A stretch of DNA of 64,000 nt, from positions 1 through 64,000 of the forward strand of contig NZ_JAPDPF010000007.1 of the NCBI RefSeq assembly GCF_026283925.1, given 5' to 3'. The notes beneath the pieces are model-generated. The model saw nothing but the letters and a program-made list of their open reading frames with translations, did no database searches and was not told the DNA's origin. The stretch comes from Dyella halodurans (lineage in GTDB: Bacteria; Pseudomonadota; Gammaproteobacteria; Xanthomonadales; Rhodanobacteraceae). Position 1 is the first letter of the stretch, and each line of letters starts with the position of its first letter. Positions 1,395-44,330 of this stretch are shown here, piece after piece. The position numbers and the translations under genes are program-made.

Positions 1395-2420
1395 CTACTT
1401 GGTCGGGGTGACTTTGGCCCCCCGGCGATTGCGAGTGTACTGCTCCGTCATCACAACTGACGAATGGCCCAGCTGCTTTTGAGCCTCGCGGATGTCGCCA
1501 GCTGAGTCCGCCTTGTCCGTTGCCGCCTTCGCTCTCAGGTCGCGCAACTGGAACGCCTCCGGCTCAATCCCCACTGATGTGCACGCTGCGCGGAATGCGC
1601 GGCGCAACCGGTCATAGCTCCATGGTTGACCGTCTTCGCCAATGACCAGGCGGGTGGCATGCACCTTGTAACCGCCCTTGCGATCGGCGATTCGATCCAG
1701 CAGCGCGGCGAGCTCCCCCACGATTTCAATGCGACGCTTCGCGCCAGTCTTGCTTTGCCGCACATGCAGGAAGCCGCCGCGAATGTCGCGCACGTCCATG
1801 GCGAGCGTGTCGGAGACGCGCTGCGCCGTCAGGTAGGCGAGGTCCATGGCGTCGCGCAGCGGCGCGCTGGCGAAGTCCCACACCGCCTGGTAGTCGACGT
1901 CTTCGATGTACACGTCGCGCCCGGTCTCCTTGAAGCCCTTAACGCCGGCGCAGGGATTGGGGAGGGCCGTGTAACCCTTCTCGCGCGCCCAGTTCCAGAT
2001 ATGGGACAGCAGCGCCTTGTCGCGGTTCGCGCGCACCTTCGCCTTGTCGCCACGCCAGTCCAAAAACGCCTTGACGTGCTGCGGCTCGATCCTCTCCAGA
2101 GCGCACGGCGGATCGTCGAAGTAGGCATTGAGCTGCTTGAGCGACTTCTCGTTGTCATCCTGCGTGCCCGGGCGCTTGGTCGGCATGACCACGGCCCGAT
2201 AGAGGTCCGCCACATACCGGAACGTGACGATGGCCTTGGGCTTCTCTGTGCCGTCGCGCCGGATCTTCGCCCACTTCGTAATGGCCAGGCCGTAGTCGCT
2301 GCCCAGCGCTTCCTCTCGACGCGGTTTTCCGCCGTGGTCGTAGTAATAGAAGGTCTTCTTGCCCTTCACGCGCACCCTCAGATTGGGAACGGCATCAGGG
2401 CGGGTCGGTCGGCGTCCCAT
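1395..2420 (-). CDS. int: Tyrosine-family site-specific integrase
   Basis: 341 residues. The N-terminal half is the arm/core-binding part; the catalytic domain follows from about residue 170. Visible active-site residues are R201 (TAQRVSDT), the beta-hairpin lysine K224, R296 (RDLR), H319 (LGHSS) and the nucleophile Y328 (EQYTR). The first histidine of the usual H-x-x-R box is an arginine (R293), giving RDLR, a variant some phage integrases also carry. It would recombine attP with the 3' end of tRNA-Leu. It starts 2 bases after the stop of the DUF4224 gene, so the two are probably co-transcribed. Confidence 0.95.
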   Translation of the reverse strand: MGRRPTRPDAVPNLRVRVKGKKTFYYYDHGGKPRREEALGSDYGLAITKWAKIRRDGTEKPKAIVTFRYVADLYRAVVMPTKRPGTQDDNEKSLKQLNAYFDDPPCALERIEPQHVKAFLDWRGDKAKVRANRDKALLSHIWNWAREKGYTALPNPCAGVKGFKETGRDVYIEDVDYQAVWDFASAPLRDAMDLAYLTAQRVSDTLAMDVRDIRGGFLHVRQSKTGAKRRIEIVGELAALLDRIADRKGGYKVHATRLVIGEDGQPWSYDRLRRAFRAACTSVGIEPEAFQLRDLRAKAATDKADSAGDIREAQKQLGHSSVVMTEQYTRNRRGAKVTPTK

Positions 2421-2422
2421 GG

Positions 2423-2635
2423 TTAGGCTGCGGCCTTGTTCGACTTCCAGGTGCCACTAGCCTGCGCCTGCTCAGGTTGACCTTCAACCGCGGCGCGGGT
2501 AACCACCGGCCAGCCGTGGGCGTCCAGGTAGTGCCGGATCCCGTTGAGGCGCAGGAACGCGACCTGGCCGGCCTTGCGGCTTGTCCGGCACAGCTCGGTC
2601 AGCTCGTCGCGGGTAAGGCATAGGGTCGTACTCAT
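2423..2635 (-). CDS. DUF4224-type protein upstream of integrase
   Basis: 70 residues. The first 45 residues (LTRDELTELC..., then an LNGIRHYLDAHGWPVV stretch) match the pattern of DUF4224, a short domain commonly encoded immediately before phage integrases. It may modulate integration, but no activity has been assigned from sequence. Its start codon overlaps the stop of the gene before it (2632-2635), and it ends 2 bases before integrase, so the three genes form one translational unit. Confidence 0.75.
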   Translation of the reverse strand: MSTTLCLTRDELTELCRTSRKAGQVAFLRLNGIRHYLDAHGWPVVTRAAVEGQPEQAQASGTWKSNKAAA

Positions 2636-8368: not shown

Positions 8369-8772
8369 GGCGTGTACTCCCTAGCTTCTTCTGCGGCTTC
8401 GCGGTTGAGGTCGTCCTCGGCGGCTTGGCGCACCAGGACGTCGCGCTGGGTGATCAGCGGCTTCAGGGCCCGGAAGAGGGCCGGCAGTGCCATGGCCTCG
8501 TCGGGCGTCAGGTCCAGGCCGGCGAGCGACTTCTCGAACACCGGCCATGCGTTCATGGCCAGCACCGACAGCTCGATCAGCTCCAGACCGCCTTCGCCGA
8601 GTCCCTGAGCACGGAGGCCGATGGCCTCGTCCATGAACAGTTCGGATACGCGGCTGGTGTCGGCGTTGATCACCTTGCAGCGCTCGTTGAGCTGCCACTC
8701 GGCGCGCTGCTCGCGGGTCGTGCGCGGCAGGGGCTGGGCCGGGGCAATGGCGTGGCGGGCGAGGGCGTTCAT
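8365..8772 (-). CDS. Unknown phage protein (135 aa)
   Basis: 135 residues from the ATG at 8772, which overlaps the upstream TAA (TAATG). The open frame extends much further upstream, but that part is arginine-rich shadow of the neighbouring gene. The protein is helical and acidic (LGEGGLELIELSVLAMNAW, LTPDEAMALPALFRALKPL). No family recognised. Confidence 0.6.
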   Translation of the reverse strand: MNALARHAIAPAQPLPRTTREQRAEWQLNERCKVINADTSRVSELFMDEAIGLRAQGLGEGGLELIELSVLAMNAWPVFEKSLAGLDLTPDEAMALPALFRALKPLITQRDVLVRQAAEDDLNREAAEEAREYTP

Positions 8773-8981
8773 TACTCGGTCTCCGACTGGGACTGCAGGA
8801 CCCATGCAGCGCCCTGGCAAAGGGCGGCGGCTATGGCGATGGCGTGAAGCGGCGACATGTGGAGGTCCTCGAGCCAGGCGTCTCCGTGCTGACCGAGCAC
8901 AACGCGGCGCTCGTCTGCGGTGACATCGACGCCGGTGTCGGCATTGATCTGGATCGTTTGGGAAACCCATGGACTGCCCAC
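8772..8981 (-). CDS. First gene of PL-like operon, unknown (69 aa, GTG start)
   Basis: The frame is open to an ATG at 9035, but a near-consensus promoter at 9043-9015 predicts a transcript starting near 9008, inside that frame. The GTG at 8981 has GGAG eight bases upstream and lies downstream of the predicted transcript start, so it is preferred. The 69-residue product ends with a hydrophobic helix (LHAIAIAAALCQGAAWVL). Being the first gene under repressor control it may be an early regulator, but no family is recognised. Confidence 0.55.
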   Translation of the reverse strand: MGSPWVSQTIQINADTGVDVTADERRVVLGQHGDAWLEDLHMSPLHAIAIAAALCQGAAWVLQSQSETE

Positions 8982-9014
8982 GACACTTGCTCCGGTTGCC
9001 TTGAGGTTGAAGCG

Positions 9015-9055
9015 ATTATGGAATGCCATAATCATCCTGTCAATGGAATCCCATA
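9015..9055 (-). promoter_or_regulatory. PL-like promoter with two repressor operators
   Basis: Minus-strand -35 TTGACA (9043-9038), 17-base spacer, -10 CATAAT (9020-9015). The palindrome ATTATGGAATGCCATAAT (9015-9032) covers the -10 and spacer; a second, ATGGAATCCCAT (9043-9054), covers the -35. Centres are 25 bp apart. The same palindrome recurs between the repressor and cro genes. Repressor bound here would block the leftward early operon. Confidence 0.8.
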
Positions 9056-9084
9056 AATATTTTTCAGTTGGTGAGATTCGGGCA

Positions 9085-9113
9085 ATAAAAAAGCCCGCTC
9101 GAGGCGGGCTTTG
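9085..9113 (-). terminator. Rho-independent terminator of the immunity operon
   Basis: Stem AAGCCCGC (9091-9098) with GCGGGCTT (9104-9111), loop of five bases, followed in the minus direction by a U-run. It separates the lipoprotein gene from the PL-like promoter. The same stem-loop sequence recurs at 30047-30069 in the late region. Confidence 0.85.
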
Positions 9114-9136
9114 GATCGTCGTGCCTAGGTTGCCGG

Positions 9137-9505
9137 TTACTGGCTGGAGAACATCCCGGCCTTCGCCTGAGAGGTCGACGAGGTCGACTGCACGTACTTT
9201 CCGGCTTTGTCGAAGGTGAGGGAGGCGGTCACGGTGTTCGCGTCGGAGTGGCCGACGAAGGGACCGACAAGCGGGATAAAGCTGGAGCCGCTCGCCTGTG
9301 CGTGCGAGAAGGCATAGACGATGATGGTCGAGCCGTCCGGCAGCTTGGTCACTGCGTTCGGTGTGCCGAGCTTGGCCTCGGCCTGGTCGATCGTGGTCAC
9401 TCCAGGCTGAAACGCGTTGACGACATTCGGATCCACCTTGGTGCCGGCAGAGACGCAGCCGGCGAGAAGGGCGGTTGCGACGAGTACTGCGGACGGCTTG
9501 AGCAT
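9137..9505 (-). CDS. SmpA/OmlA (BamE-like) phage lipoprotein
   Basis: 122 residues. A lipobox LAGC (C16) follows a short hydrophobic signal, so the mature protein is acylated. The domain after it (GVTTIDQAEAKLGTP, DGSTIIVYAF) is the helix-helix-strand pattern of SmpA/OmlA/BamE-like lipoproteins. It is the last gene of the operon headed by the repressor and ends before a strong terminator, so it should be expressed in the lysogen. A role in cell-envelope conversion or superinfection exclusion is inferred, not shown. Confidence 0.75.
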   Translation of the reverse strand: MLKPSAVLVATALLAGCVSAGTKVDPNVVNAFQPGVTTIDQAEAKLGTPNAVTKLPDGSTIIVYAFSHAQASGSSFIPLVGPFVGHSDANTVTASLTFDKAGKYVQSTSSTSQAKAGMFSSQ

Positions 9506-9517
9506 GTCGGCGGTTCC

Positions 9518-9955
9518 TTAGGAAGCTTGGCGATATAGGTTGAGGAGGCGGTCCAGATGCATGATGAAGTCAGGCGGCAGAGCTTCGGCTAGAGCATCAG
9601 CAATGCGCGTGACGTCTTGGAGCGCGGGTGAATTGGGTGGGGGCGAACTTGCCGTGCGCGCTGGCAGTGCATGCACGACACGATTGCGAGCTGCGCGGAT
9701 CGCTGCGGGCGCTGCCCACGATGTTCCTCGCGTGCCTTCTTCGACAAGTCGGGCGTTGAAGTAGTCCAGAAACGCGCGCGACGCATCTTGACGCCTGCGC
9801 CATTCGCGAGTGGTTATCTCGTTGGATCCGGTCGTTTCGCCGGTAGGTTTCTGCTGCTTTCTTCCGACCAACCGGAGCTTAGGCTTTACGGCCAGCTCGG
9901 GATAAGCCTTTCTTACTTCCGCCACCATTCGCCGCCGAATCCCCTCGTTCTCCAC
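9518..9955 (-). CDS. Unknown protein of immunity operon (145 aa)
   Basis: 145 residues if it starts at the GTG at 9955 (purine-rich upstream sequence), or 136 from the ATG at 9928. Either start overlaps the end of the repressor gene by 50-77 bases in another frame, an unusually long overlap. The middle is basic; the C-terminal part (IADALAEALPPDFIMHLDRLLNLYR) is helical. No family recognised. Confidence 0.5.
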   Translation of the reverse strand: MENEGIRRRMVAEVRKAYPELAVKPKLRLVGRKQQKPTGETTGSNEITTREWRRRQDASRAFLDYFNARLVEEGTRGTSWAAPAAIRAARNRVVHALPARTASSPPPNSPALQDVTRIADALAEALPPDFIMHLDRLLNLYRQAS

Positions 9956-10406
9956 CCTCGTCCCCTTTCTGAGCCACGCCAGCCGCTTTAAGCACGAGGC
10001 GCGCCATATTGTTCGGCGTCCTCTCCTGAGTCATTTGCATACGAGCTACGTACATCTCTACAAAGCGCTCCGGCTCTTCCTCGATGTTGTAGACAAGGCC
10101 GGCTTCCTCGTACGCGGTACGAAGTGCCCAGGCAGTGTCAGCAATCATCTGGGGGTCCAATCTCACGGACTGAGAGACGCTGTCCGGTGCGGGTTCCGAG
10201 GCTTCCTTCGCGCCCTTGCCGGTCTCAAGCCAATCGGCGCGTAGGCCCAAGGCTTTAGCGATTACGTGCAGGCGCGTGGTCGAATCCTGGTCGCCGTTCT
10301 CAATACCGGCCAACGTGGGGTAGGGGATGCCGGTGGCGCGCGCCAGCTCTGACCGGCTCATGTGCCGGTCGGTTCTGGCTTGTTTGATTCGGGCGCCAAT
10401 CGTCAT
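9879..10406 (-). CDS. CI-like phage repressor without peptidase domain
   Basis: 175 residues from the ATG at 10406. HTH_3-type DNA-binding domain at residues 6-60 (IKQARTDRHMSRSELARATG, YPTLAGIENGD). The rest is charged and helical, with no S24 serine/lysine dyad or cleavage site, so RecA-triggered self-cleavage is not expected from the sequence. An upstream in-frame ATG at 10430 is inside the operator region; a predicted -10 (CATAAT, 10421-10416) puts transcription near 10409, so the shorter start is preferred and the mRNA would be almost leaderless. Confidence 0.85.
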   Translation of the reverse strand: MTIGARIKQARTDRHMSRSELARATGIPYPTLAGIENGDQDSTTRLHVIAKALGLRADWLETGKGAKEASEPAPDSVSQSVRLDPQMIADTAWALRTAYEEAGLVYNIEEEPERFVEMYVARMQMTQERTPNNMARLVLKAAGVAQKGDEGGERGDSAANGGGSKKGLSRAGRKA

Positions 10407-10415
10407 GTGCGAATG

Positions 10416-10472
10416 ATTATGGAATCGCATTATGGGATGCCGTTGACAGCGCCCTATGGGATGCCATAGAGT
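10416..10472. promoter_or_regulatory. PR/PRM-like control region with three operators
   Basis: Three copies of the TATGG-N4-CCATA type: 10418-10431 (right half degenerate), 10431-10444 (right half CCGTT) and the perfect CTATGGGATGCCATAG at 10454-10469. Rightward: -35 TTGACA at 10443-10448 and a weak -10 TAGAGT at 10467-10472 (18-base spacer). Leftward: -10 CATAAT at 10421-10416 without a good -35, as is usual for a repressor maintenance promoter. The two strongest operators overlap the rightward promoter. Confidence 0.75.
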
Positions 10473-10479
10473 AGTAGCT

Positions 10480-10719
10480 ATGGACACTTGGAAAGACAAA
10501 ATCGTAGCCCTCGAAGCACGCGGCTGGACCCTTACGGGCATCGGCAACGCGGTCGATCTGTCGCCGTCTTCGATCAGTGACATCAAGCAGGGCCGCTGCA
10601 AAAACCCCGGCGGCATGGCTGCAGTGAAGATTCACAACCTGTTCTCCACCGGCGCACTCCCTCCAGGGCGTGAAGTCGCCGCGAATGCTCCCCACAGCAA
10701 GCGGAAGAGGGCGGCCTAG
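10480..10719 (+). CDS. Cro-like DNA-binding protein
   Basis: 79 residues from the ATG at 10480. Residues 14-40 (GWTLTGIGNAVDLSPSSISD plus IKQGR) are a helix-turn-helix of the Cro/YdaS type; the C-terminus is basic (SKRKRAA). The frame is open from an ATG at 10456, but that lies within the promoter. There is no Shine-Dalgarno; with the -10 at 10467-10472 the transcript would begin at or next to this ATG, so a leaderless mRNA is likely. Divergent from the repressor, first rightward gene. Confidence 0.8.
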   Translation: MDTWKDKIVALEARGWTLTGIGNAVDLSPSSISDIKQGRCKNPGGMAAVKIHNLFSTGALPPGREVAANAPHSKRKRAA

Positions 10720-10786: not shown

Positions 10787-10975
10787 ATGTACGCCGATCC
10801 GACCCATCTGCGAAACAAGGTCATCAAGGTCCGCTTGAACGATGACGAGCGCGACCTTGTTGATGCTCTCGCTCGCGTGAACAAAACGCAGCCCGCCGTC
10901 CTGCTGCGCGAACTGGTCCTTCAGGGCCTGTCGTTGTTCGAGCAAGAGAGTAACGACACGCGCCATGTCGCATGA
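10787..10975 (+). CDS. Small ribbon-helix-helix-like regulator
   Basis: 62 residues from the ATG at 10787, with AAAGGA upstream. A strand (KVIKVRLNDDE) followed by two helices (RDLVDALARVN, PAVLLRELVLQG) fits a ribbon-helix-helix (Arc/CopG-type) DNA-binding fold. In this position, after cro, it may act like an early regulator such as CII, but the fold differs and the role is unproven. Confidence 0.65.
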   Translation: MYADPTHLRNKVIKVRLNDDERDLVDALARVNKTQPAVLLRELVLQGLSLFEQESNDTRHVA

Positions 10976-44239: not shown

Positions 44240-44303
44240 ACCATTGGTACCGGTGATAGGACTCGAACCTACACGACATCGCTGCCAGTGGATTTTGAGT
44301 CCA
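44240..44303. repeat. Right attachment repeat (attR core) inside intact tRNA-Leu
   Basis: Identical to 814-877 over 64 bp. It covers tRNA positions 28 to 86 plus five bases downstream. The tRNA 3' end here is therefore of phage origin but unchanged in sequence, so the gene remains functional. Confidence 0.95.
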
Positions 44304-44330
44304 CCGCGTCTACCATTCCGCCACACCGGC
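44245..44330 (-). tRNA. tRNA-Leu (anticodon CAA)
   Basis: 86 nt with encoded CCA. The acceptor stem is GCCGGTG with CACCGGT (first pair G-U); the anticodon stem-loop GTGGA-CTCAAAA-TCCAC gives anticodon CAA, reading UUG; a long variable arm and the T-loop GGTTCGAGTCC follow. Class II tRNA as expected for leucine. It is the integration site of the prophage. Confidence 0.96.

Follow-up and report, generated by a model that had tools for sequence, protein, structure and literature searches.

In phage lambda, the immunity system has three operators of 17 bp in each of its two control regions, spaced 23 to 24 bp apart, and the OR operators are centered at about −19, −42, and −66 relative to PRM, with OR2 being the site near −42. 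The 434 repressor recognizes operators of 14 bp with a half-site other than the one described below. For the immB regions of N15 and phiKO2, five operators with a TA-N10-TA motif are reported (three in OR and two in OL), the repressors of both phages are said to be without self-cleavage residues, and phiKO2 Cro is said to bind OR3 only (PMC4997575). The Shiga toxin phage 933W is reported to have no OL3 and to rely on intrinsic differences in affinity (PMC3317979).

The DNA analyzed here (the window; 64,000 nucleotides from Dyella halodurans) contains five palindromes that, judged by their sequence and placement, very probably serve as operators in an immunity system with two control regions, OL and OR. 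Their coordinates at the two control regions agree with the original prediction. The operators (no strand) and their promoters are as follows.

9017-9030 (core), no strand: OL1 operator, TATGGAATGCCATA, no mismatch to TATGG-N4-CCATA; in its extended form covers the −10 element of PL
9042-9055, no strand: OL2 operator, AATGGAATCCCATA, one mismatch, 25 bp from OL1
10418-10431, no strand: OR3 operator, TATGGAATCGCATT, two mismatches (ATGG..GCAT), lies over the probable −10 region of PRM
10431-10444, no strand: OR2 operator, TATGGGATGCCGTT, two mismatches (hybrid, ATGG..CCGT)
10455-10468, no strand: OR1 operator, TATGGGATGCCATA, no mismatch to TATGG-N4-CCATA
9043-9015, minus strand: PL promoter, −35 TTGACA (9043-9038), spacer of 17, −10 CATAAT (9020-9015), 11/12 consensus positions
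10443-10472, plus strand: PR promoter, −35 TTGACA (10443-10448), spacer of 18, −10 TAGAGT (10467-10472), 10/12 consensus positions
10412-10421, minus strand: probable PRM −10 region, either AATCAT (10417-10412) or CATAAT (10421-10416)

The sites had been described as five near-identical copies of TATGG-N4-CCATA covering the −10 and −35 elements. Two are exact copies and one carries a single mismatch, while "near-identical" is too strong for OR3 and OR2, with two mismatches each. Coverage in the full sense applies to OL1, whose perfect arms reach GATTATGG..CCATAATC (about 9014-9033) so that the extended palindrome spans the PL −10; elsewhere the overlap amounts to two bases, between OL2 and the PL −35, between OR2 and the PR −35, and between the PR −10 and OR1, the core of which lies mainly inside the PR spacer. 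OR3 and OR2 share one base, and OL and OR are 1,415 bp apart. A promoter scan returned two promoters, PL and PR, against a mean of 0.4 in shuffled sequence; the same scan gave no match for PRM, which has no recognizable −35.

The genes around these sites include the following.

1395-2420, minus strand: integrase, leftward
2423-2635, minus strand: excisionase, leftward
8772-8981, minus strand: first leftward gene, probable start GTG at 8981 with GGAG 8 nt before it (listed start, ATG at 9035)
9090-9112, minus strand: terminator-like hairpin with a 9-bp stem and T-rich tail, between the cargo genes and PL
9137-9505, minus strand: small lipoprotein-like gene (phrog_3135, a family of unknown function, E 7.5e-13; BamE, E 0.021, below the Pfam cutoff)
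9518-9955, minus strand: open frame of 145 aa downstream of CI; its 5' end overlaps CI, and its start is unsure
9879-10406, minus strand: CI-like repressor, 175 aa, helix-turn-helix (HTH) within residues 1-65 (HTH_3, E 1.2e-9; PHROG transcriptional repressors)
10480-10719, plus strand: Cro-like protein, 79 aa (phrog_6223, transcriptional repressor, E 8.7e-14)
10787-10975: small ribbon-helix-helix-like gene after cro (phrog_4113; weak match to Arc-like phrog_3431, E 0.018)

Further leftward genes encode a DNA methyltransferase, a RecE-like exonuclease, and an AAA-protein, and the rightward genes are cro followed by those for replication initiation and DnaB helicase. For the first leftward gene, the GTG at 8981 is preferred because the ATG at 9035 precedes the expected PL start and lies between the OL operators. 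The hairpin is weak evidence on its own because three such structures occur in the region, against 1.9 expected. The lipoprotein-like gene lies between CI and PL, which we take to be the position of rex in lambda, and is possibly an exclusion or conversion gene. Whether the 145-aa frame is a gene can be said with low confidence at best, and it had no Pfam or PHROG match at an E value of ≤0.1. The two small frames after cro, the only ones searched in this respect, match phrog_4113 and phrog_5333 and not CII. A single tRNA was found in the window, a tRNA-Leu(CAA) at 44245-44330 on the minus strand.

Within the window, matches to the motif with up to two mismatches number 19, against 9.1 expected. 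Spacing is more distinctive: the window has two pairs at 23 to 25 bp and one trio spaced 13 and 24 bp, while 60 first-order Markov windows averaged 0.03 pairs and contained no trio. It had been expected that a motif scan of the whole genome (4.69 Mb) would find only these sites. This did not hold for the bare 14-mer, which has exact copies in three places, one of them outside the prophage and inside an ABC transporter ATPase frame. When one mismatch is allowed, it matches 48 places and the reversed control 36. An extended motif derived from the five sites had one outside place at two mismatches and four at three (reversed control, three and one). Because of such near-background copies, the bare motif is uninformative as a specificity test, and a composite unit was used instead, in which the right arm of one operator continues into TTGACA and a second operator then extends as far as the −10. 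This unit is present in exactly two places in the genome, both of them here (reversed control, none), and is absent from all 60 Markov windows. Across 233 genomes of the family, it was found at 10 places in six genomes, with no reversed control among the matches listed; that scan used a fixed spacer and thus did not count the window's own OL. Chance palindromes over ordinary promoters would be in keeping with the near-background frequency of the bare motif, but the composite unit and its spacing lie far above all controls and the unit recurs at the same place in relatives, and we regard a chance origin as next to impossible. It is the arrangement, not the bare 14-mer, that sets these sites apart from chance.

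A first set of relatives assembled by protein search had matches in 53/297 genomes, mostly to the HTH, and several of its members share the layout with other half-sites. The repressor as a query retrieved one related viral locus and none in the genome_contigs collection; cro as a query gave one related locus. Although 67 records of named phages match the repressor, none does so over 80% of its length, and at the DNA level the region matches only the helicase genes of two cyanophages among named phages. In the same genus, one locus (L039, from genome G009) has diverged ACGG-N4-ACGT-like sites (TACG..CGTA) beside a 143-residue repressor.

The layout itself can be found by DNA pattern. Scanning with AYGG-N4-CCRTTGAC-N7-WAYGG-N4-CCRTA retrieved 86 stretches with the unit from viral_contigs and 14 from genome_contigs, the latter from Stenotrophomonas, Pseudoxanthomonas, Luteibacter, Rhodanobacter, Luteimonas, Xanthomonas sp., a Lysobacteraceae bacterium, and metagenome-assembled genomes. 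Because these collection scans restricted the halves to A-Y-G-G and the spacer to N7, other half-sites and spacings are undersampled. A looser unit was then applied to 109 sequences (L036-L142, L005, and the first 20 kb of the window) and gave 160 matches, for 77 of which an HTH gene in divergent orientation lies no more than 120 bp away; these represent 62 distinct OR regions, many of them close kin. The window, L038 (ACAG), and L041 entered this set from the window or the protein search rather than from the collection scans. Many of the 83 matches with no adjacent HTH hit are OL sites or lie on cut contigs, and 31 loci had no match with an adjacent HTH hit. OL and OR could be paired, facing outward, in 45 systems at distances of 510 to 3,438 bp, and each system uses one half-site type except for single-half departures in five sites. 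The inner spacer of the OL pair is 7 in 40 of these systems, 6 in 3, and 8 in 2 (the window among them), a distribution to be read in light of scans that favored a spacer of 7. As tested here, the composite unit is findable by DNA pattern and recurs at the same place in relatives.

The OL-OR interval resembles the position of rex in lambda. In the window and its relatives, 61 frames were listed in this interval, and the 53 longer ones, from loci that include L036 to L119, were searched, with eight short frames dropped. Single frames match AbiGi, a HipA-like kinase, PD-Lambda-5_B, PtuA/AriA-like ATPases, and a methyltransferase in Pfam or PADLOC (one of the listings gives 25 of 114 families).

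In Pfam at an E value of ≤0.1, the window's repressor matches only HTH families, with no S24 peptidase match, and its C-terminal part has no match in phage records at an E value of ≤0.01. In a structural model built from three sequences (pTM 0.40), the HTH is good and the C-terminal part forms three helices, predicted with moderate confidence. An S24 motif of the G-x-SM type is present in 49/62 repressors (33 by motif rule and 16 variants read by eye); three repressors are cut short, and 10 have no such motif, including the window's. The nearest solved structures by sequence are the 434 repressor and a variant of it, and Gly34 of the window's repressor aligns with Gln33 of the 434 repressor.

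The residue of the recognition helix at this position and the OR1 half-site go together in all 61 classifiable ORs, the 62nd repressor being truncated: Gly with ATGG (24/24), Asp with ACGG (25/25), Asn with ACGG (11/11), and Glu with ACAG (1/1; a case found by protein, as the scan pattern excludes ACAG). Like the layout and its recurrence, this association is read directly from the sequences. The tree, built from 59 columns with the recognition helix left out, is poorly resolved; on it, Gly versus non-Gly amounts to a single change and one independent pair, so that descent alone could keep residue and half-site together. Fisher's test takes no account of this shared descent and is given no weight here. 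Hall, Lefevre, and Cordes are said to have correlated Cro recognition helices with half-sites in 2005, and the idea of such a code is reportedly theirs or older. From co-occurrence and covariation, we infer that the repressor binds these sites. Another protein might bind the palindromes in its place, such as the small Arc-like product of 10787-10975, the ribbon-helix-helix-like gene of which follows cro; however, half-site changes track the recognition helix of CI and the matches adjoin a CI gene in 62 distinct cases, which leaves this option very improbable.

The original prediction was that the OL/OR logic of lambda is reproduced here; the spacing of lambda is not. Rather than three sites about 23 to 24 bp apart, OR3 and OR2 are separated by 13 bp, and OR2 and OR1 by 24 bp. 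In 55/60 ORs, a site is found at a distance of exactly 13 bp from OR2, as against 1/69 other matches, and a single OR (1/60) has a further site at another offset (8 to 45 bp). The 13-bp site is missing from L038, L044, L045, L046, and L138; L038 is an ACAG system, which escapes the rule. The 24-bp distance between OR1 and OR2 is partly by construction because the search pattern fixes the N7 spacer. By its sequence pattern, the switch is a widespread variant with OL sites about 24 bp apart and OR spacings of 13 and 24 bp. No 13-plus-24 layout was found in the literature as judged from titles and the openings of abstracts, some of them in partial listings.

This geometry bears on PRM. The repressor ATG is 25 bp from OR2 in 45/56 readable ORs, and the consensus of those 45 has an AT-ending element about 6 nt before the ATG, with no visible −35. 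Taking the AUG as the start of the repressor message would center OR3, OR2, and OR1 at −18.5, −31.5, and −55.5. Compared with lambda, OR2 and OR1 would thus lie about one helical turn nearer to the repressor start, and OR2 would fall where sigma would touch the −35, which makes lambda-type activation of PRM from OR2 appear unlikely. Self-limitation by CI bound at OR2 would be a simpler reading than stimulation of PRM.

The cro ATG follows the PR −10 by 7 nt in the window (10472-10480), a distance suggesting that cro is probably leaderless. With the cro start defined as the first ATG opening a frame no shorter than 55 codons, this ATG is 9 to 13 nt past the unit (about 7 nt past the −10) in 51/62 systems and 30 to 31 nt past it in 8; it was not found in 3. 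A motif rule located the recognition residue of Cro in 48/62 systems as Asp (n = 45) or Glu (n = 3). Among the 24 systems with a Gly-type repressor, Cro was found in 22, all with Asp. No system of this type has an ACGG half at OR1. A CCGT half is present on the −35 side of OR2 in 22/24 (the window included), and one or both halves of OR3 are ACGG in 19/24. In the same −35 context, OL2 has CCAT in 20/23 and CCGT in 3/23; within pairs, 19 have CCGT at OR2 with CCAT at OL2, one has the reverse, and three are alike. Because OL2 is mostly CCAT in this setting, promoter context does not account for CCGT at OR2.

These counts suggest that CI and Cro may divide the operators between them, with CCGT fitting either the Asp of Cro or a tuned weakness toward CI. 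The claim that all five sites are primarily repressor sites need not hold, as CCGT at OR2 in most Gly-type systems fits the Cro residue. Alternatively, all five could be CI sites of graded strength, as reported for 933W with its intrinsic affinity differences and missing OL3 (PMC3317979), and the CCGT halves would then be weakened sites that set the order of filling, unrelated to Cro. Five of the 24 Gly-type systems (the window, L037, L045, L067, and L138) speak for this alternative, as a complete ACGG half is missing from their OR3 despite the Asp of Cro. Any base would serve for weakening, however, and what is seen at OR2 is predominantly CCGT and at OL2 predominantly CCAT, with ACGG halves common at OR3; these counts are not independent because the systems form one clade. 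We consider graded CI sites quite possible, if somewhat short of probable.

As a whole, the locus is best explained as the lambda-like switch by which an integrated temperate phage controls lysogeny, a reading that its sequence features make highly likely. In the assignment of proteins to sites and the directions of effect that we infer, the 175-residue CI would bind OR1, OL1, and OL2 and shut PR and PL. PR would drive cro and the replication genes, and PL would drive recombination, excisionase, and integrase. Cro, as the first product of PR, would bind OR3 and OR2 and shut PRM, and CI bound at OR2 would repress PRM instead of activating it. We tentatively outline, as a rather doubtful generalization, a class of switches in which one residue encodes which operators go to CI (ATGG) and which to Cro (ACGG), and in which the loss of a turn between OR3 and OR2 puts OR2 on PRM and makes CI self-limiting without positive autoregulation; some members, the window's included, would be without S24 and so without a response to RecA in the manner of lambda.

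Because the layout can be recognized from a DNA pattern and needs no protein similarity, it allows lysogeny regions, their operators, and the intervening genes to be annotated across many prophages. It also brings together some 60 repressor/operator pairs from nature, with a single apparent specificity residue, and lets natural systems show whether stable lysogeny requires activation of PRM by CI at OR2. The 13-bp OR3-OR2 spacing and the possible operator code of CI and Cro may be its most interesting parts.

In comparison with lambda, the logic originally predicted for two regions 1.4 kb apart is supported in general, while lambda's spacing is not reproduced. CI and Cro are divergent with OR between them, and operators lie on their promoters (PR by scan and PRM by position); by gene order, OL is the second cluster, on a leftward promoter facing the exonuclease, excisionase, and integrase genes, and PR faces cro and replication. 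Such outward-facing pairs recur in the 45 systems. Lambda likewise has extra genes between CI and PL and a repressor message starting at or near its AUG. Unlike lambda, the window has three plus two sites of 14 bp, 13 bp between OR3 and OR2, and a repressor without a match to the self-cleaving S24 C-terminal domain. Unlike the 434 repressor, the window's repressor has a C-terminal part that matches nothing found here. Two S24-bearing relatives of the window's repressor have Pseudomonas phage D3 among their own named relatives with the highest scores; the D3 repressor is 31% identical to the window's over 93 residues, and D3 has three annotated putative OR operators of 14 bp, but these are spaced 24 and 24 bp apart. 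The absence of OL3 is shared with 933W (PMC3317979). In N15 and phiKO2, the operators are 16 bp long and OL precedes repA (PMC4997575), whereas the leftward matches in the window are to recombination, methyltransferase, excisionase, and integrase genes; the window nevertheless resembles immB in its number of operators, three in OR and two in OL.
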